Positions 6,561-25,689 of a DNA stretch of 29,869 nt are shown here, in pieces; the first letter of the stretch is position 1; each line of letters starts with the position of its first letter. Made by a program: the position numbers and the translations under genes. This DNA is from a virus. The stretch is from positions 1-29,869 of IMG/VR virus record IMGVR_UViG_3300044535_000346; one strand, written 5' to 3'. The notes beneath the pieces were generated by a model. The model saw only the letters and a list, made by a program, of their open reading frames with translations. It had not been told where the DNA came from and did not search any database.

Positions 6561-8397
6561 GGTAGATGCTGACACCAGTAAAGCCACGAAAGGGGCTGAG
6601 CAATTAGCCCAAGCACTAGGCAAGGCAGGTAAACAAGCAGAAAATACTAATCAATCCCTTAAAGAAAGTGGGAGTGCAGGTAGTCGATTTAGCAAGGTAC
6701 TCGGTGGATTAAAATTTGGTGCAGGACTGGCAGTCGGCAAGGGATTACTTGATAAGGTCATGGGTTCCCTAATCGAAAACGAGAAGGTAGCCAATTTATT
6801 TAATGATGCCTTATCGGTAATTACTGGTACGGCTACTGGCTTAGTAGAGATAATGGAACCTGGGTTTAAAGCCATTGGTGATGCCATTAAAAACCCAAAA
6901 CAAGCATGGGACGATCTAGTTTCTGCGTTTGAACGAGGTGGAAAATGGATTAAGGAAAATCTGATTGACGGAGTAATTGGCTTGTTCTCAGAACAGATAA
7001 ACAATCTGGAGATGGGGATTTTAAAACTGCGTAAAGGTTGGAACGAATGGACTGGCGATACTGAGGAGGCATCGGTCATGCAGGAACGGATTAATGAGTT
7101 GCAAAAGGAAAACATCGAGATACAAAAAGAGCAATCAGAACGCCTTACAAACATCAAAGCAGTAGCGACGGGGGCAGTTGAAACTCTAACATCATGGGGT
7201 AATACCATTGCCAAGAACATCAAGAGTACGATACAAGGGAATCAAGCCTTACGCGATTCAACAAATGCGTACATTACACAAAATGCTCAAATCGAGGAAA
7301 ACATAAAATCGTTAGAACGCCAACAAGCCCAAAATGAGGCAAGTGCTAACAACGAAACATTAACATTTGCAGAACGCAAAAAATCGATTGAGGCAAATAT
7401 CGAGTTAAAGAAGCAACAGATTGAACAAGAGAAGCAGTTAATCCAAAACCAGATTAATTTACTGGCACTTGAAAACAAAGCCAAAGGATCGTCAGCAGAG
7501 CGTACTGCACAGATAGGGGCGTTAAATGTTCAAATGAAGGGGCTGGATGCGACTATTAGTGAAACTCAACTTACCGTAGATGAAACATTGCGTACCATAG
7601 CAGAGCAGGAGAAGGAAACGACAAAAGCAATTAGTGAAGCGATACTAGAGAAGAACAGAGTAGAAGCCGAAGCCTTTGCACAGACAACTGGTCTAGAGCA
7701 CGAGAAACTCAAGATGCAACTTGATGTTATCGATGCACAGAAAAAAGCCTTTATGCAGTCCTACGATGAGCGATTGGCTAAGGAGACGGAAGGAACATCG
7801 AAATACAACGAGATATTGGCTGAGCGACTTGCTAAAGAGGGCGAGTTCAATGCACAGCGTATTCAAGGAGAAGCCGAATATACCGATGCTGTAAAAGCAT
7901 TTAAGAAAACGCAAAAGGAGGAGGAGGTACTTTTAATGCAGGCAAAAGCACAAGCCATTTCACAAGGACTTAATGTCGCACGTGCTTTAATCAAGGAGGA
8001 TTCCAAAATGCAGAGTGCGATTAACATCGCGGAGGCTATCATGCAAACTTATGTTGGTGCGAATGTCGCGTTGGCTAGCAGTCCACCGCCTTTGAACTTT
8101 ATAAATATGGCTGGAGTTATTGCTGGAGGACTAGCGAATGTTATCAAGATTCAGCAACAGGCTCGTAAAATGGCAAGTGAAACTGGAGGCTCAGCACCAA
8201 GCGGAGGCTCTGTAACCGCTCCATCGATGGGACCTAATATTTCTGTGGCACGAAGCAATGTCGATAGTAATATGCAGTTAGGAAATGCCATGAAACAAGC
8301 AGGGAAACCCCCTAGAGCGTATGTCGTTTCTGGAGACATTAACTCCGCTGAGTCACTCGATAGGAAAATTTATCAAAATGCAACACTAGGAGGTTAA
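6538..8397 (+). CDS. Tape measure protein
   Basis: The 619-residue protein has the build of a tail tape measure. It has a charged N-terminus, a Gly/Ala-rich hydrophobic region (about 55-110), a long coiled coil rich in Gln, Glu, Lys and Ala (about 180-450), and a second hydrophobic region near the C-terminus (about 470-540, including NFINMAGVIAGGLANVIKI). It would set tail length and pass through the membrane during DNA entry. At about 0.15 nm per residue it predicts a tail of roughly 90 nm. It is the last gene of the first late unit. The next late promoter begins inside its final codons. Confidence 0.8.
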   Translation: MANDINFKVDADTSKATKGAEQLAQALGKAGKQAENTNQSLKESGSAGSRFSKVLGGLKFGAGLAVGKGLLDKVMGSLIENEKVANLFNDALSVITGTATGLVEIMEPGFKAIGDAIKNPKQAWDDLVSAFERGGKWIKENLIDGVIGLFSEQINNLEMGILKLRKGWNEWTGDTEEASVMQERINELQKENIEIQKEQSERLTNIKAVATGAVETLTSWGNTIAKNIKSTIQGNQALRDSTNAYITQNAQIEENIKSLERQQAQNEASANNETLTFAERKKSIEANIELKKQQIEQEKQLIQNQINLLALENKAKGSSAERTAQIGALNVQMKGLDATISETQLTVDETLRTIAEQEKETTKAISEAILEKNRVEAEAFAQTTGLEHEKLKMQLDVIDAQKKAFMQSYDERLAKETEGTSKYNEILAERLAKEGEFNAQRIQGEAEYTDAVKAFKKTQKEEEVLLMQAKAQAISQGLNVARALIKEDSKMQSAINIAEAIMQTYVGANVALASSPPPLNFINMAGVIAGGLANVIKIQQQARKMASETGGSAPSGGSVTAPSMGPNISVARSNVDSNMQLGNAMKQAGKPPRAYVVSGDINSAESLDRKIYQNATLGG

Positions 8398-8407
8398 TCC
8401 GTTATAT
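8382..8407 (+). promoter_or_regulatory. Putative phage late promoter 2 (AAC-N15-CGTTATAT)
   Basis: AAC at 8382-8384, 15 bases, then CGTTATAT at 8400-8407. The gene at 8413 starts 13 bases after the C of CGTT. The element overlaps the last codons of the tape measure gene. Confidence 0.7.
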
Positions 8408-8412
8408 TTAAA

Positions 8413-8829
8413 ATGTCTATGAAAAATACATCGTACCATAAATTCATGTCCTCCAAAGGCAAAGCGGAACATTTAGTAAATACAAAACTTAAGGAACATA
8501 ATATTGATTTAGGCTTGATTGACGATGCAAAAATCGGTTCCAAAGAGATACTAGATGCGTACAATAATCCTATATGGAATGAATTGTATAAATTACCAAA
8601 TGAAGTTTTAAGAATTTTAAACCAAGCCAAAACACAACTTGAATTAGGTCGAAAAGGACAAATTAAAGCAATAGAAAACGCAAGGAAAGTATCAGCGATG
8701 GCTAAAGAATTAGGTATACCAAACCCAAAAGAAATTGACGACATTTTTAAAAACAATGATTTTGAAGCATTAATGGATTCTTTTGATAGTGACTTAGGTC
8801 GTATAGAGGCTATAATTAAAAAATATTAA
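8413..8829 (+). CDS. Unknown helical protein with its own late promoter
   Basis: This 138-residue protein is charged, Lys- and Glu-rich and predicted almost wholly helical. I do not recognise it. It lies between the tape measure and the protease and has its own late promoter. Its codons look more AT-rich than those of its neighbours, which fits a later arrival, though I did not compute this. The ATG at 8413 sits 5 bases after CGTTATAT. A second Met codon follows at 8419. Possible roles are a head-internal or scaffold-related protein, or a moron-type accessory gene. None can be chosen from the sequence. Confidence 0.75.
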   Translation: MSMKNTSYHKFMSSKGKAEHLVNTKLKEHNIDLGLIDDAKIGSKEILDAYNNPIWNELYKLPNEVLRILNQAKTQLELGRKGQIKAIENARKVSAMAKELGIPNPKEIDDIFKNNDFEALMDSFDSDLGRIEAIIKKY

Positions 8830-8831
8830 AA

Positions 8832-9419
8832 ATGCGTATTGTAGAACTCATATTGGATGAGGACCAGTTAGCACATGGTATTGATGCAATTTCGATTGTA
8901 TCGGCACCAGCGATTGAGTCTAATTTTATAGCCTTAAAAAAGCACAATGTCAAGTTCGCCACTCTAGATTCTGACAAGCGTATTTTGATGGGACCAGCAT
9001 TGATTCCAGACAAGCCTATTTATCGCAACCAAGACGGGGAGGAGTTCTATTGTTATTTTAGTCAGAATACAGTTCGCAGAGCATCGGAACTTTATTTGAC
9101 ACGAGGTAATCAAAACAATGCTACTCTAGAACATGAGTTTAACATTCATGGATTGAGCCTTGTCGAGACTTGGATTAAGGAGGATATGGTTAAAGACAAA
9201 AGTGCCATGTATGGATTGAACGATCCTATTGGAACTTGGATGGTAACAATGAAAGTTGCCAATGACCAAATCTGGAATGAATATGTTAAAACGGGATTAG
9301 TAAAAGGCTTTTCAATAGAGGGTTTTTTTGCTGAGAACTCAAGCATCAAAGCCAAGAAACTTGCGGTCAATCCAGAACTTGATGAATACCTCCAAAGTTT
9401 AGGCTACTCAAAAATCTAA
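8832..9419 (+). CDS. XkdF-like prohead protease
   Basis: The 195-residue protein matches the XkdF-like phage serine protease family. GPALIPDKPIYR (54-65) is followed by TLEHE (98-102), then GLSLVETWI and GTWMVTMKV, and finally KGFSIEGFF (158-166). His101 and Ser161 are the likely catalytic pair of the herpesvirus/HK97-type protease fold. It would cleave scaffold and capsid precursors during head maturation. The context agrees, with a scaffold-like gene and then the capsid gene following. It begins two bases after the preceding gene. The next late promoter overlaps its stop codon. Confidence 0.8.
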   Translation: MRIVELILDEDQLAHGIDAISIVSAPAIESNFIALKKHNVKFATLDSDKRILMGPALIPDKPIYRNQDGEEFYCYFSQNTVRRASELYLTRGNQNNATLEHEFNIHGLSLVETWIKEDMVKDKSAMYGLNDPIGTWMVTMKVANDQIWNEYVKTGLVKGFSIEGFFAENSSIKAKKLAVNPELDEYLQSLGYSKI

Positions 9420-9443
9420 CACATTAAAATTAATCCGTTATAT
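9418..9443 (+). promoter_or_regulatory. Putative phage late promoter 3 (AAC-N15-CGTTATAT)
   Basis: AAC at 9418-9420, 15 bases, then CGTTATAT at 9436-9443. The scaffold-like gene starts at 9448, 12 bases after the C of CGTT. It would drive the scaffold and capsid genes, the products needed in largest amount. Confidence 0.7.
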
Positions 9444-9447
9444 AGTT

Positions 9448-10248
9448 ATGTCAAACGAAGCACAAAATATCTTAGACCGAGTTTTAGGTCAATTAGGATA
9501 TAAGAAACCAGTTGCCATCAATATGTCTCAAAAAAAGACAATCGATGGACAAACCATATTTGATTCTGAAAATTTTGCTATTGGCGACTCAGTATTTATT
9601 GTAACTGCTGATGGCAACATTCCAGTACCATCTGGAGATTACGAATTGGAGGATGGCTCAGTTGTAAGCGTAGACGAATCTGGCATCATTTCAGCAGTTT
9701 CAACTACTGCACCAGAAAGTGCGGAAATGGAAATTTCTCCAGTTGCAGGAACTCCACCAATGACACCCAAGACAATTATTGAATCTATGACAAAAGAAAC
9801 ACAATTTGCCGAAACTCCAGTAATGGACAATCCTGCAATAGAGGAAAAAATCGGTGAGCAGACAATGGGAAAACCAGCCTTGCTAGTAAAATGCGAGGAT
9901 ATGGTAGGACCAGAAAACTCCCCACTAGCAGAGAAAATCGCTGAGGCGATTGTAAGCATCGTCGATAGTGGACAAGTAGCCCCTTTAATCGAGGAATACA
10001 AAAAGGCTAAAATGTCAACTAAGATGAGTGCACATTCAACAGATCTCTCTGAAACAATGCGTGCCTTTGAATTGAAACTTAATGCGTTATCACAAGAGAA
10101 CGAGGCTTTAAAAGAGGCTTTGTCTACTGAAGGAAATCGCACATTTTTCAATCCAGAGCAAAATAGTAAAACTAAAATCAATTTTAAAATCGGTGCTCAA
10201 CGTGAAGAAACAATCACAGACCGAGTATTCAGTCAATTATTCTCTTAA
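9448..10248 (+). CDS. Scaffold-like capsid assembly protein
   Basis: This 266-residue protein lies directly upstream of the capsid gene. Residues about 30-85 form a beta-rich segment with repeated DG turns (TIDGQTI, GDSVFIVTADGN, YELEDGSVVSVDESG), seen in capsid-associated proteins of Bacteroidota phages. A Pro- and Thr-rich linker follows (about 88-130). The rest is helical, with a probable coiled coil around 205-235 (ELKLNALSQENEALKEAL). A coiled-coil tail beside protease and capsid genes suggests a scaffold that the protease removes. That role is inferred. Confidence 0.6.
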   Translation: MSNEAQNILDRVLGQLGYKKPVAINMSQKKTIDGQTIFDSENFAIGDSVFIVTADGNIPVPSGDYELEDGSVVSVDESGIISAVSTTAPESAEMEISPVAGTPPMTPKTIIESMTKETQFAETPVMDNPAIEEKIGEQTMGKPALLVKCEDMVGPENSPLAEKIAEAIVSIVDSGQVAPLIEEYKKAKMSTKMSAHSTDLSETMRAFELKLNALSQENEALKEALSTEGNRTFFNPEQNSKTKINFKIGAQREETITDRVFSQLFS

Positions 10249-11196: not shown

Positions 11197-11217
11197 TCCG
11201 TTACTTGAAAATATATA

Positions 11218-11243
11218 GGGCTAGGTAAACTAGCCCTTTTTTT
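11218..11243 (+). terminator. Intrinsic terminator after the capsid gene
   Basis: GGGCTAG (11218-11224), loop GTAAA, CTAGCCC (11230-11236), then seven T. The stem is a perfect 7 bp. Confidence 0.85.
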
Positions 11244-11837: not shown

Positions 11838-11863
11838 TTGTTGTTTTAATTATATTTTCCATA

Positions 11864-11890
11864 GCCTCCGTAACTGGAGGCTTTTTTTTT
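11864..11890 (+). terminator. Intrinsic terminator after the tail tube gene
   Basis: GCCTCC (11864-11869), loop GTAACT, GGAGGC (11876-11881), then nine T. The late promoter at 11893 begins three bases after it. Confidence 0.85.
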
Positions 11891-11892
11891 CT

Positions 11893-11918
11893 AACAAAAT
11901 CCGTATATTCCGTTATAT
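11893..11918 (+). promoter_or_regulatory. Putative phage late promoter 4 (AAC-N15-CGTTATAT)
   Basis: AAC at 11893-11895, 15 bases, then CGTTATAT at 11911-11918. The ATG at 11924 is 13 bases after the C of CGTT. Its place directly after a strong terminator makes it the only visible source of message for the portal region. Confidence 0.75.
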
Positions 11919-11923
11919 TGTAT

Positions 11924-12271
11924 ATGTACATCAAGCCAACTGATACAACGATATTTATTTATCCGTTTATACCATTTCCAGTAGGGAACATAACTTTAGT
12001 AGTCGTACATAAATTAACTAAAGTTCAAGTATCTCTTACGCAATCATATTCAAGTACAAATTCTGGAGTTACACTAACTTTGCCGAATCTTACTAATATT
12101 AACAATGTGGCTACTAATCTGGATGAACTAGTTATCCGTTGCTTTGATGCGACAAATACCTTGTATTACGAGATGGTAAACCGATGGGTAACTAACTCAC
12201 CGAATATCCTGCTTAATCGCAAAACATGGACTGCTACAAATAACAATACAAAAGAATGGTTGACACTATAA
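11924..12271 (+). CDS. Small beta-rich structural protein before the portal
   Basis: A 115-residue, mostly beta-strand protein with low charge, so probably a virion component. I do not recognise the family. The ATG at 11924 is preferred over an in-frame TTG at 11918, because that TTG overlaps the -10-like element of the promoter. It is the first gene of a late unit and overlaps the portal start by 16 bases. Position suggests a head decoration, neck or fibre-linked protein, but nothing in the sequence decides. Confidence 0.7.
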   Translation: MYIKPTDTTIFIYPFIPFPVGNITLVVVHKLTKVQVSLTQSYSSTNSGVTLTLPNLTNINNVATNLDELVIRCFDATNTLYYEMVNRWVTNSPNILLNRKTWTATNNNTKEWLTL

Positions 12272-15361: not shown

Positions 15362-15513
15362 CCGCAATAAATCGAAAATTTACTAACCCATCTAGGTCAA
15401 GCCCAAAATCAAATGGCAGGGCTTGTCTATGTAAAGACAAAAACAAATATTCTAAAAAATGTTGTGATGGCAATTTATGGGCACAAGGCATCGGTAACAT
15501 TACACAACCCTAA
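15358..15513 (+). CDS. Small cysteine-rich protein
   Basis: A 51-residue protein starting by ATGA overlap on the lipoprotein stop. It contains ACLCKDKNKYSKKCCDGNLW followed by AQGIG, with four cysteines (23, 25, 35, 36). I recall similar small proteins ending in WAQGIG next to the fibre genes of other Bacteroidota phages, which supports real coding. The cysteines could bind a metal ion. The function is unknown. The late promoter at 15512-15537 begins at its stop codon. Confidence 0.65.
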   Translation: MTAINRKFTNPSRSSPKSNGRACLCKDKNKYSKKCCDGNLWAQGIGNITQP

Positions 15514-15537
15514 CAAATCAATTTAAAATCGTTATAT
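15512..15537 (+). promoter_or_regulatory. Putative phage late promoter 5 (AAC-N15-CGTTATAT)
   Basis: AAC at 15512-15514, 15 bases, then CGTTATAT at 15530-15537. The ATG at 15542 follows 12 bases after the C of CGTT. It would drive the fibre and lysis genes. Confidence 0.7.
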
Positions 15538-15541
15538 ATAT

Positions 15542-15814
15542 ATGAGTATCGCAGGTTCCGCATTCACCGCAGGGTACACTGGTAGTGTAGCCGTTGCCAA
15601 TACATCAGCCAAAACGGGTCGTTTCCGTGGATTTTTCGTTAATTCAAATGCCGTTGTTTCGGCTTGTTTGGACAAAGACGGAAATTCATTAATGACGATC
15701 ATGGGATTGACAAGTACAACATTGTTGCCTGGTCCATTCCATTGTGTTGCTGATGGCAATTACATTTCATCAATTACCTTAACATCGGGTTCAATCGTAC
15801 TTTACAACGAATAA
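15542..15814 (+). CDS. Small structural protein upstream of the fibre
   Basis: A 90-residue protein rich in Gly, Ser, Thr and Val, probably all beta (GSVAVANTSAKTGRFRGFFV near 14-33). Small proteins of this composition stand before the tail fibre in other Bacteroidota phages. It may be a fibre-base or decoration protein. This is inference from composition and position. It is the first gene of the fifth late unit and is coupled to the next by TAATG. Confidence 0.65.
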   Translation: MSIAGSAFTAGYTGSVAVANTSAKTGRFRGFFVNSNAVVSACLDKDGNSLMTIMGLTSTTLLPGPFHCVADGNYISSITLTSGSIVLYNE

Positions 15815-15972
15815 TGTTTGTTGGAATCGCAATGGGTGTTACCCCTTTCCCACAAGGCGATGGAGGGGTGTTGGCATTGGCATATACCAATCGTGTAACT
15901 GCGGATGGTGGTTATTACGAAGGGGTGGATTGTATGATTTTTAAGTTGAATAATTTAGACACTCAAGAATGA
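15814..15972 (+). CDS. Small fibre-associated protein
   Basis: A 52-residue frame linked by TAATG to the gene before and by ATGA to the fibre gene after. The C-terminal half, YTNRVTADGGYYEGVDCMIF, is a pattern I recall from short proteins placed before flavobacterial phage and prophage fibres. The double coupling and resemblance make it a real gene. It may be an adaptor or chaperone for the fibre; no evidence fixes this. Confidence 0.7.
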   Translation: MFVGIAMGVTPFPQGDGGVLALAYTNRVTADGGYYEGVDCMIFKLNNLDTQE

Positions 15973-17690
15973 GCACATTATTAGAACAAGCGAGTTTGGT
16001 AATGATACCAAGCGGGTATAAAGAGGACATCGTATATTCAGCAGTCCCAACCGACGGAAGCGGTGATTTATCATTTACAAGGGCGAGCAATGGCACGCGG
16101 GTAAATAGTGCGGGGTTGGTGGAGGATGTGCCGTGGAATTTGGCGCAAAACTCCGAGCAATATAATGCAGGAACTTGGTTGCTTGCTTTTTTAAGTATTT
16201 CAATAGATAGTGCAGTTGCACCAAATGGAACAACTACGGCAGATTTATTATACCCATCAAGTAGTCAAGCATATTGTTATGTATCTACAACATCATTTAG
16301 TGTTGTTGCGGGTCAAACATATACGCAAAGTGTTTACTTAAAACGAAGTGGATTTAGATGGGGTATTGTCGATAATATGGCAGGAAGCCCAGGTGCATGG
16401 TTTGACTTATTAAATGGCGTTGTTGGCAATGTTGCAAGTGGTTGCACGGCATCAATAGAAAGTGTTGGAAACGGATGGTATCGTTGTAGTGTTTCAAGTG
16501 TAGCACAATCGGGTACAAACTATGCCGATTTTCGTATGTCTGATGCCAATGGTGGCAGTACAGTAACTGCAAACGGAACTGACGGATTATTGGCTTGGGG
16601 ATTTCAATTAAACATCGGCTCAACCGCGAAACCCTATTTCCCCACAACTGACCGCTTAAATGTTCCACGATTAACTTATCAAAATGGCGGGGGCGGGTGT
16701 CCTTCGTTATTACTTGAAAAGCAGAGTACGAATTTGTGTTTATATTCAGAACAAATTGATAATGCAAGTTGGGATAAAGTCAATGGTAGTGGTGGAACTG
16801 CGCCCGTTGTAACTGCAAATTATGGAATTAGCCCCGATGGAACGCAAAATGCAGACCGCATACAATTAGCACGAACAACTGCGGCAGGTAGTTATTCCTA
16901 TGTATATCAAACTATAACATTATCGGCTTCGGCAACATATACAGTTAGTGTTTATCTTAAAAGTTTAAGTGGAACTCCAACAATTTCAATTGCTCTTGAT
17001 GGTGTAGGTTATGACCATGTTGTAACTATGACAACGGAATGGGCAAGATATGAAGTTGAAATTGTTGCGGGTGGTTCTTTTGATAGAGCGCAACTTTTGT
17101 TATATCAAGCAGTTCCATCGACTTCTTTAACCGCAGATTTTTTGGCTTGGGGATTCCAAGTAGAGCAATCATCTTACCCCACATCCTACATAAGTACCAC
17201 ATCAGCAAGTGCAACAAGGGTGGCGGATACTTGTAGCAAGACGGGGATAAGTAGTTTGATAGGGCAGAGTGAGGGGGTTTTATTTGTGGATTTTAACAAT
17301 GTAACAAACCCAGAAGCGGGAGATTACAATATGTTAGCAACAATTTCTGATTCAGCAAATGACTATATTTATATAAGCAAAAGAAATCCTACAGGCATTG
17401 AAATTTACGGAGGTGTGGGTGCAACAACTTACATAACAAGTGGAGTATTTGTAGATGGTCAAAGATATAAAGTTGCGTTAGCGTATAAGAATAATGATTT
17501 TGCAGTTTATATTAACGGCAGTTCAATTTGGACAGATACAAGCGGAACAATAGCTGTTAACACTCCAAATAAATTATCGGTTGGTAGTTATTATTCGCAA
17601 ATCTTAAATTTTAATAGTGGAATTAACCAATGCGCACTATTCAAAACCCGCCTTAGTAATTCAGATTTAATCGCCTTAACAACTATCTAA
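15969..17690 (+). CDS. Tail fibre / receptor-binding protein with repeated sugar-binding-like modules
   Basis: The 573-residue protein starts with a short attachment region ending in LSFTRASNGTRVNSAGLVED (35-54). Two similar beta-sandwich modules follow. Module 1 runs from NLAQNSEQ (57-64) to LLAWGFQL (207-214). Module 2 runs from NLCLYSEQ (255-262) to FLAWGFQV (391-398). Both resemble carbohydrate-binding modules. Residues about 430-573 look like a LamG/concanavalin-type domain (ALAYKNNDFAVYINGSSIW, then a strand series). The protein should bind host surface glycans. G-runs and GCG/GGG codons seem commoner than in neighbouring genes, which would fit exchange of receptor-binding genes between phages, though I did not count them. 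Confidence 0.75.
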   Translation: MSTLLEQASLVMIPSGYKEDIVYSAVPTDGSGDLSFTRASNGTRVNSAGLVEDVPWNLAQNSEQYNAGTWLLAFLSISIDSAVAPNGTTTADLLYPSSSQAYCYVSTTSFSVVAGQTYTQSVYLKRSGFRWGIVDNMAGSPGAWFDLLNGVVGNVASGCTASIESVGNGWYRCSVSSVAQSGTNYADFRMSDANGGSTVTANGTDGLLAWGFQLNIGSTAKPYFPTTDRLNVPRLTYQNGGGGCPSLLLEKQSTNLCLYSEQIDNASWDKVNGSGGTAPVVTANYGISPDGTQNADRIQLARTTAAGSYSYVYQTITLSASATYTVSVYLKSLSGTPTISIALDGVGYDHVVTMTTEWARYEVEIVAGGSFDRAQLLLYQAVPSTSLTADFLAWGFQVEQSSYPTSYISTTSASATRVADTCSKTGISSLIGQSEGVLFVDFNNVTNPEAGDYNMLATISDSANDYIYISKRNPTGIEIYGGVGATTYITSGVFVDGQRYKVALAYKNNDFAVYINGSSIWTDTSGTIAVNTPNKLSVGSYYSQILNFNSGINQCALFKTRLSNSDLIALTTI

Positions 17691-19218: not shown

Positions 19219-19249
19219 TTTGGAAAATGCAAAATTAGTATTATCTTTG
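19219..19249 (+). promoter_or_regulatory. Host-type promoter at the start of the early region
   Basis: TTTG (19219-19222), 19 bases, TATCTTTG (19242-19249). It repeats 16 bases of the first promoter exactly (19243-19258 equals 44-59). The next gene begins 19 bases downstream. The rest of the 97-base gap after the amidase is AT-rich. I see no clear terminator in it. Confidence 0.75.
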
Positions 19250-19775: not shown

Positions 19776-19806
19776 TTTGATTTTTGGCAAAATAAATATA
19801 TCTTTG
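19776..19806 (+). promoter_or_regulatory. Host-type promoter upstream of a short early gene
   Basis: TTTG (19776-19779), 19 bases, TATCTTTG (19799-19806). The first ATG downstream is at 19810, only three bases away. Confidence 0.7.
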
Positions 19807-19809
19807 TAC

Positions 19810-20013
19810 ATGACAAAATGGGAAAAAATTGACAAACTGCTTAACATGAAAAAAGGTACGATGATAATCTATACTCCCCACTTTGGAGACGGCATCCCAC
19901 AAGAGGCTCGATTCTACAGAGTACGCGAAAATAAGCAAGATTACATGATTGATGTCGAACTCCTTGATGGAGGGGTTCGATGGGGCTACCTTGACCAGAT
20001 AACGATATTTTAA
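19810..20013 (+). CDS. Short hypothetical protein (start uncertain)
   Basis: From ATG 19810 the product is 67 residues; from ATG 19846 it is 55. The recognisable part is a compact beta-rich domain beginning KKGTMIIYTPHFGDGIP and ending GVRWGYLDQITIF. The ATG at 19810 lies three bases after the promoter's TTTG, so it would need a leaderless message. The ATG at 19846 would have a leader of about 35 bases. A still earlier frame opening at 19777 precedes the -10-like element and is not plausible. The function is unknown. The HTH gene follows after four bases. Confidence 0.6.
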   Translation: MTKWEKIDKLLNMKKGTMIIYTPHFGDGIPQEARFYRVRENKQDYMIDVELLDGGVRWGYLDQITIF

Positions 20014-22619: not shown

Positions 22620-22650
22620 TTTGAAAAAAGAAAAATATAGTTTATCTTTG
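22620..22650 (+). promoter_or_regulatory. Host-type promoter
   Basis: TTTG (22620-22623), 19 bases, TATCTTTG (22643-22650). The next ATG (22658) is seven bases downstream, so the leader would be very short. Confidence 0.7.
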
Positions 22651-24665: not shown

Positions 24666-24795
24666 CGTACCAATTACATTTATTGACCATTGCAATGTCA
24701 ACGGAATCGATTTAAAGGCTTGGTATAAATGGAGGCTACACATAGCCAGAGAATCAAAGAAACTCTACCAAAAAAGGAATGAGATAGACAAATGA
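24637..24795 (+). CDS. Small basic hypothetical protein upstream of the sigma factor
   Basis: A 52-residue frame starts 29 bases inside the nuclease gene and ends with an ATGA overlap on the sigma factor start. The protein is basic, with WYKWRLHIARESKKLYQKRN near the end. The ATGA link and the exact filling of the gap support it. Short proteins co-encoded with ECF sigma factors are sometimes anti-sigma factors, but those are usually larger and often membrane-bound. No such role is shown here. Confidence 0.6.
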   Translation: MKSATTLKVNVPITFIDHCNVNGIDLKAWYKWRLHIARESKKLYQKRNEIDK

Positions 24796-25388
24796 CGTTA
24801 ATGCTCGTGGATATAGGCAAACGCCACAAGGAGTGGATTCGTATAGCGATATATGTTGGCTCACCTATATCCACCGCAGAGGACATGGTACAGAATATGT
24901 ACCTAAAATTGGCAGACATGCAGATTCGCGAAGGATCGTTAAATCGGATTCAAAACAATAATGGCTCAGTTAATACCGTATATGTATTTAAGATGCTATC
25001 TAACCTTGTAGTCGATGAAGTACGCAGAGGCTCTAAGGAAACGAATCTAGACGATTCAATAGATATCCCTATCAATGACGAGATAGTTGACGATAGGGCT
25101 TACAATGACCTCATAGAGCACATCAAAGTAGTTATCGATGATATGCACCAATACGACAAGATGCTTTTAGAACTGCATTTTGTATACGACATGAGCATGA
25201 GGGCAATTCAACGCAAAACAGATATACCAACACATTCAATATTTAACACACTAAAAAATGCAAAACAAAAAATCAAGCAGGAAACTAGTCAGAGATACAT
25301 TAAATATATCCGAGACCGAAACGACAGAGAAACCGATGATGGGATTGGGCGACCTAATCCAGAAAGTAACGAAGGCGACTGGTATTGA
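24792..25388 (+). CDS. Phage sigma factor, sigma-70 family, ECF-like
   Basis: The 198-residue protein shows the two domains of a group IV (ECF) sigma factor and lacks region 3. Region 2 is at about 12-80: STAEDMVQNMYLKL (27-40) matches the core-binding helix, and VFKMLSNLVVDEVRRGSK (65-82) matches the -10 recognition part. Region 4 is at about 107-162: YDKMLLELHFVYDMSMRAIQ (121-140), then an HTH with IPTHSIFNTLKNAKQKIKQ. A charged tail follows (165-198). It probably directs host RNA polymerase to the five AAC-N15-CGTTATAT promoters. The gene lies mid-operon in the early region and overlaps the next gene. Confidence 0.75.
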   Translation: MTLMLVDIGKRHKEWIRIAIYVGSPISTAEDMVQNMYLKLADMQIREGSLNRIQNNNGSVNTVYVFKMLSNLVVDEVRRGSKETNLDDSIDIPINDEIVDDRAYNDLIEHIKVVIDDMHQYDKMLLELHFVYDMSMRAIQRKTDIPTHSIFNTLKNAKQKIKQETSQRYIKYIRDRNDRETDDGIGRPNPESNEGDWY

Positions 25389-25689
25389 GAAAGCCGTCAA
25401 ATTTATTGCTGGAGAAGATTGTGGATGCGATGCCAGACGAGAGAAACTGAACAAATTGTTCCCAATCAAAAAACCGCTTTGTTTAACTGAGGACGAATAT
25501 AATTGGTTAACAGAGTTTAGAGAAGGCAAAACAGATACGCTAACTGGGGTAGAAAGCAAAACGCTAAGTGCCATTTATACAAGAGTATTCCAGATAAGAA
25601 AAACATATAGCCCATGCCATTGCGACCCAAATGCGTGGAACGAATTAATCGGTAACTTAAATGACATCTACAACACATACCAAAATTGA
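25258..25689 (+). CDS. Hypothetical protein with GEDCGCD motif
   Basis: The 143-residue protein has a core recognisable from Bacteroidota phages: GLGDLIQKVTKATGIEKAV (29-47), then FIAGEDCGCDARREKLNKLF (49-68) and a C-terminal PCHCDP. The paired cysteines may bind a metal. The function is not known. The start is uncertain. ATG 25258 gives a Lys/Ser-rich N-terminus but overlaps the sigma gene by 131 bases; ATG 25336 or 25339 would begin just before the core. Homologues often carry a basic N-terminal tail, so I keep the longer form. Confidence 0.65.
   Translation: MQNKKSSRKLVRDTLNISETETTEKPMMGLGDLIQKVTKATGIEKAVKFIAGEDCGCDARREKLNKLFPIKKPLCLTEDEYNWLTEFREGKTDTLTGVESKTLSAIYTRVFQIRKTYSPCHCDPNAWNELIGNLNDIYNTYQN

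Follow-up and report, generated by a model that had tools for sequence, protein, structure and literature searches.

How might a phage turn the RNA polymerase of its host to the genes for its own virion? The question is raised by a gene at 24792-25388 on the + strand of the window, the whole 29,869-nucleotide stretch of DNA analysed here, from a virus of Bacteroidota-type bacteria (IMG/VR record IMGVR_UViG_3300044535_000346), whose product the original prediction had taken for an ECF-like sigma factor that redirects the host polymerase to late genes. Profile searches, fold, gene context, conservation and controls support this claim. We put a probability of about 0.86 on the whole explanation, in which the gene encodes a two-domain ECF-type phage sigma factor that would bind core polymerase and direct leaderless late units of virion and lysis genes, while the early genes would rely on promoters of host type. 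What we observe is the family of the protein and the sites with their positions and conservation, from which we infer core binding, promoter recognition, timing and leaderless 5' ends.

ORF translation, profile search and structure prediction agree that the 198-residue protein has sigma regions 2 and 4 and lacks region 3, as had been read from the sequence originally. The sigma2 domain spans approximately residues 5-82, the linker 83-100 and the sigma4 domain 101-166; in the translation, region 2 contains AEDMVQNMYLKL and region 4 contains LLELHFVYDMSMRAIQ plus a helix-turn-helix. The AF2 model (mean pLDDT 78) has helices at 5-82 and 101-182, and between the helices of sigma2 and sigma4 only a short low-pLDDT linker (83-100). 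The best 25 PDB matches of this model in Foldseek are nearly all ECF sigma factors, SigL, SigW, RpoE and SigH among them, and sigma4 superposes on region 4 of E. coli sigmaE bound to -35 DNA (2h27) with a TM-score of 0.87 by target length and an rmsd of 1.1 Å. VIA structure comparison gave Z values of 10.0 for sigma4 against 2h27 and 10.7 for the sigma model against the sigmaE initiation complex, and sigma2 by itself reached 8.4 on Bartonella RpoE; since a hinge connects the two domains, the global rmsd of the model is large. While the fold search found these matches, a sequence search of the PDB with the window protein returned nothing significant. The NCBIfam sigma70-ECF profile TIGR02937 matches residues 18-164 and thus covers both regions (2.3e-9), although the window protein alone, at 37.1 bits, lies under the curated cut-off of 42.9; the same profile matches 12/12 relatives of the protein, the best of them with 1.6e-11. 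The PHROG sigma family phrog_1740 is matched with 7.6e-8, and a weak Pfam match to Sigma70_r4_2 (0.0053) falls under the Pfam curated cut-offs. With the window protein as sole query tblastn found nothing among isolate phages, and a scan of genome contigs yielded just three weak relatives and no host assignment via a prophage.

Could the protein be a Q-type late antiterminator instead, or another DNA-binding activator with a sigma4-like domain, whose site at host-sigma promoters would be the motif described below? Its C-terminal half does weakly match Phage_antitermQ (PF06530, 0.0073) and the Q-like phrog_79 (8e-5), but the Q-family profile covers this half only and reaches 16.7 bits against a cut-off of 26, and sigma profiles that span the full length give the better score (2.3e-9). 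Moreover, region 2 is present, and the best-conserved residues lie in it (V33, Q34, M36, Y37, K39); across 44 aligned relatives W15, G23, V33, Q34, M36, Y37, K39, N61 and I145 are invariant, most of them in region 2. An activator at host-sigma promoters also agrees poorly with the sites themselves, which have -35/-10 geometry against start codons and no TTTG/TAnnTTTG promoter beside any of the five. We consider an antiterminator or activator of this kind very improbable.

Which promoters would an ECF-type sigma factor serve in this genome? The AAC-type -35 and CGT-type -10 elements of ECF targets are both present in AAC-N15-CGTTATAT, which the window sigma factor would read and which occurs exactly five times, always on the + strand (at 692, 8382, 9418, 11893 and 15512), where 0.01 occurrences are expected from dinucleotide shuffles; the reversed control contains no exact occurrence. 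When two mismatches are allowed, 20 sites face 12.3 expected, a weak excess near chance, and therefore it is the exact form that constitutes the signal. The first predicted late promoter, AACATATTAGGTAAACATCGTTATAT (692-717), ends 6 nt before the ATG at 724, the second, AACACTAGGAGGTTAATCCGTTATAT (8382-8407), 5 nt before the ATG at 8413, and the third, AACACATTAAAATTAATCCGTTATAT (9418-9443), upstream of the capsid gene, 4 nt before the ATG at 9448. The fourth, AACAAAATCCGTATATTCCGTTATAT (11893-11918), heads the portal unit directly after an intrinsic terminator (11863-11891, + strand) and lies 5 nt before the ATG at 11924, which is the start of this unit, and not the mechanically called TTG at 11918. 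The fifth, AACAAATCAATTTAAAATCGTTATAT (15512-15537), precedes the ATG at 15542 of the receptor-binding and lysis unit by 4 nt. Another intrinsic terminator (11217-11243, + strand) closes the capsid unit. Downstream of the sites, the units include a tape-measure-like gene (6538), a head protease gene (8832), a putative capsid gene (10261; called from gene order and size, without a strong family match) and the portal gene (12256), and the last unit contains receptor-binding and amidase genes (15969, 18533). Thus all five sites precede units with tape-measure/tail, head protease, capsid, portal or receptor-binding/lysis genes, and the earlier statement that the five ECF-style elements stand only before structural and lysis units holds.

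The position of the sites relative to the start codons suggests how the late messages begin. In the window, every late site ends 4-6 nt before the ATG and places the G of the -10 element 11-13 nt before it, and in 33 of the 51 sites from all genomes analysed this distance is 11 nt. At the experimentally mapped sigma promoters of phages phiEco32 and 7-11, transcripts begin 6-9 bp from the promoter element (PMC8948821). Given the 11-13 nt between the -10 G and the ATG, transcription is predicted to start at or within ~2 nt of the start codon, and since genes that start beside the A of their ATG must still be translated, leaders of ~0-2 nt are expected. By this geometry the late virion and lysis mRNAs should be leaderless. 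The very constant distance to the ATG might also be taken to indicate that the motif acts chiefly in the message, as an element of translation start or of the mRNA, and is for this reason fixed relative to the ATG. To this reading we give very little credence, since the bipartite pattern of AAC, 15-18 nt and GTTA is typical of ECF promoters, one site directly follows the terminator at 11863-11891, and the element is found upstream of genes that head units and not upstream of every gene.

Leaderless transcription as such has precedents. Leaderless promoters in Deinococcus likewise have a -10 element few bp before the ORF and give leaderless mRNA, but they belong to a cellular genome, have the -10 motif TANNNT and form no phage sigma regulon (PMC12340547). 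Phage transcripts are often leaderless according to the AR9 paper (PMC5312081), and in Flavobacterium psychrophilum leaderless genes are rare, with 5.5% of mapped mRNAs (PMC9723704). A search of the open-access literature found no report of a leaderless late regulon driven by a phage sigma factor. An all-leaderless late regulon where leaderless genes are rare would make translation start in Bacteroidota a testable question.

How would the early genes be transcribed? Host-type Bacteroidota promoters of the form TTTG-N18-20-TATCTTTG occur four times in the window (0.7 expected), all on the + strand and outside the late units: at 19-50 (TTTG-N20-TATCTTTG), at 19219-19249 in front of the early/replication region, at 19776-19806 within 4 nt of the ATG of the served gene, and at 22620-22650 ahead of a run of co-directional genes to which the sigma gene belongs. 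This half of the window also carries the replication-type genes. The prediction that early genes are under host-type promoters is in keeping with these four sites, which serve the early region. Judged by gene content, early and middle genes would be expressed from host promoters and late genes from AAC/CGTTATAT promoters. In the proposed sequence of events, TTTG/TAnnTTTG promoters would first be used by the host RNA polymerase and its primary sigma factor to express early and middle genes, the sigma gene among them. The phage sigma factor would then bind host core polymerase, with sigma4 reading the AAC -35 element and sigma2 the CGTTATAT -10 element 15 nt away. Five late units (tail, head protease, scaffold/capsid, portal and receptor-binding/lysis) would be started in this way, transcription beginning at or within ~2 nt of the start codon and producing leaderless late mRNAs. 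The host-type promoter at 19776-19810 (TATCTTTGTACATG) itself ends 3 nt before an ATG, and at least one early mRNA may also be leaderless; leaderlessness is therefore not exclusive to the sigma sites.

Are the sites maintained in related phages? Close relatives, whose sigma factors are ~90% identical, keep all motif letters while the spacers vary: when the window is compared with one of them, 0/55 motif letters have changed as compared to 12/75 spacer letters (p = 9e-4). The site in front of the portal gene (window 11893) has an ortholog in 37 of 66 portal loci, against none on the reverse strand, one inside the portal gene and a maximum of seven in shuffles; most of the remaining 29 loci keep a -10 element such as CGTTATAT at the ATG together with another -35 (GCAAA, ACAAA). 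In more distant relatives AACA is combined with -10 variants that differ by clade ([CGA]GTTATAT, AGTTAT[AT]T, GTTTTATA, CGTTTTATA), the spacer is also clade-dependent, and orthologous late genes in G006, G013/14, G016 and the Nonlabens phage P12024S carry the element with a clade-specific -10. Because the -10 differs by clade, AAC-anchored word counting was effective in some genomes only. The same arrangement thus recurs, with orthologous sites, in a phage family whose members are mostly uncultured but include the isolates P12024S and P12024L. The original prediction contained neither this family-wide conservation nor the leaderless geometry, both of which are new here. The proposed switch would make the control of late genes legible from sequence in a widespread phage group, of which two isolates are in culture.

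The motif and the sigma gene, whose co-variation the original prediction had proposed to examine, do co-occur. Of the newly scanned portal-family contigs, ten are at least 27.7 kb long and all ten encode the sigma factor, and the strict motif stands at 56/1292 gene starts in sigma-bearing records versus 0/420 in six sigma-less Bacteroidota phages (11b, P2559S, RAP44, B124-14, P12002L and FCL-2), which are not close relatives, so that the co-occurrence is not phylogenetically independent. The permutation test within genomes is modest (53 observed, mean 21, maximum 33). AAC-type sites were not found in the sigma-bearing records G033 and G036-G039, which are fragments of 12-19 kb, and no complete relative with sites and without the sigma gene was found among those scanned. 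Shorter portal contigs with the site and without the sigma gene (e.g. L143, 20 kb) were rejected as a refutation because they are fragments. Promoters of the host's own ECF sigma factor, with some other role for the phage protein, would be an alternative explanation of the sites, as ECF-type promoters of F. psychrophilum (SM6) likewise have a CGT box at -10 (PMC9723704). However, the sites are absent from the six sigma-less phages, and -10, spacer and -35 all change from one phage clade to another along with the divergence of the sigma factor, which makes a host ECF sigma factor a very unlikely reader.

In the deep branches with a CAAA-type -35 (G028, G040, G046) the recognition helix starts with Y[YD][ST][IL]Y, and in the AAC-type branches its first position is T, V, S, R, L, K or similar. 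The change of the -35 in deep branches accompanies a different predicted DNA-reading helix, a comparison of few independent branches that is suggestive only. Such diverging sigma/promoter pairs offer a natural set for the study of specificity evolution. Upstream of the portal gene in L160, L161, L173, L203 and L205 a conserved TTACACTTTATAAA is found together with CATTATATAnGTATG, a different upstream element.

How does the proposed switch compare with known systems? T4 gp55 is a small phage sigma factor for late genes, as proposed for the window protein, but it has no -35 recognition of its own and needs the T4 gp33 and gp45 clamp system. Another counterpart is gp33 of the Nonlabens phages P12024S and P12024L (Inhavirus), a link that was reached through the portal gene. 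It is a homologous sigma factor encoded after a VRR-NUC gene as in the window, although only 28% identical to the window sigma and with a longer promoter spacer; gp33 of P12024S scores 3e-14 in a profile built without it, and in P12024S seven AAC-N17/18-CGTTA sites stand immediately ahead of ATGs. The record annotates gp33 as a hypothetical protein with Sigma-70 region 2 and notes no regulon. Functional likeness extends to two further phages. Phage 7-11 gp47 is a sigma factor with region 4 that serves bipartite promoters upstream of late genes (GTAAtg-16-aCTA), the early genes being left to the host primary sigma factor; host phylum, phage type and promoter sequence are different, and the description of 7-11 consulted here mentions no leaderless late mRNAs. 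Its bipartite late promoters are counted as an experimental precedent for the window reading (PMC8948821). Counted against it is that an earlier computational 7-11 motif (TGATGT core, PMC4331800) differed from the one later mapped experimentally (PMC8948821). The sigma factor gp36 of phiEco32 acts on host core polymerase for middle and late genes, but is described as lacking region 4, as using the single-element promoter tAATGTAtA and as having a co-regulator, gp79 (PMC8948821). The original remark that no late switch of this kind is well described in Bacteroidota phages stands insofar as the open-access literature search found no report of a phage late sigma factor in this group; the strategy itself is established in phiEco32 gp36 and 7-11 gp47 (PMC8948821). 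A late phage sigma factor is hence of a known kind; what is new is the predicted late regulon, unusual in being wholly leaderless, and its maintenance throughout a large uncultured family.

The 3' tail of the sigma gene overlaps the next ORF (25258-25689, + strand; phrog_32048), whose product has a CxC...CxC pattern, a possible zinc site. This cysteine-rich partner is matched in 23/23 scanned sigma-bearing records, in several of which it is split into two ORFs (G028, G033, G036, G037), and has no match in Pfam. Remote matches also in a Microcystis phage mean that it is not exclusive to the portal/sigma phage family. A cognate anti-sigma factor is usual, though not universal, for ECF sigma factors. 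A wider scheme for a large and almost entirely uncultured family of Bacteroidota phages, in which the viral sigma factor would switch the late programme to wholly leaderless mRNAs and this one protein would thereby alter transcription as well as the way in which translation starts, with the -35 shifted from AAC to CAAA-type along with the recognition helix and the cysteine-rich neighbour acting as cofactor or host-sigma antagonist, is speculative and appears rather doubtful. In the sigma homologs of L071, L072 and L073 a stop codon precedes a still-conserved tail, a pattern to be expected if it is the overlapping downstream gene that keeps this part intact.

Other features of the window concern its extent and its virion genes. 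No large terminase gene is present; the close relative G002 has one (L024:6924-8081, PF04466 1.6e-21), flanked by the ParB-like gene on one side and the gene at 74 on the other, and the window is therefore probably a fragment with ~2.7 kb missing. The portal protein of G002 has an in-frame insertion of ~147 aa (L025:6086-6526) that is absent from the window portal, and L143 and L198 have similar long portals; considered as a possible intein, the insertion had no Pfam match. The putative receptor-binding protein at 15969-17690, unlike its neighbours, has no match in G002, which suggests rapid exchange.
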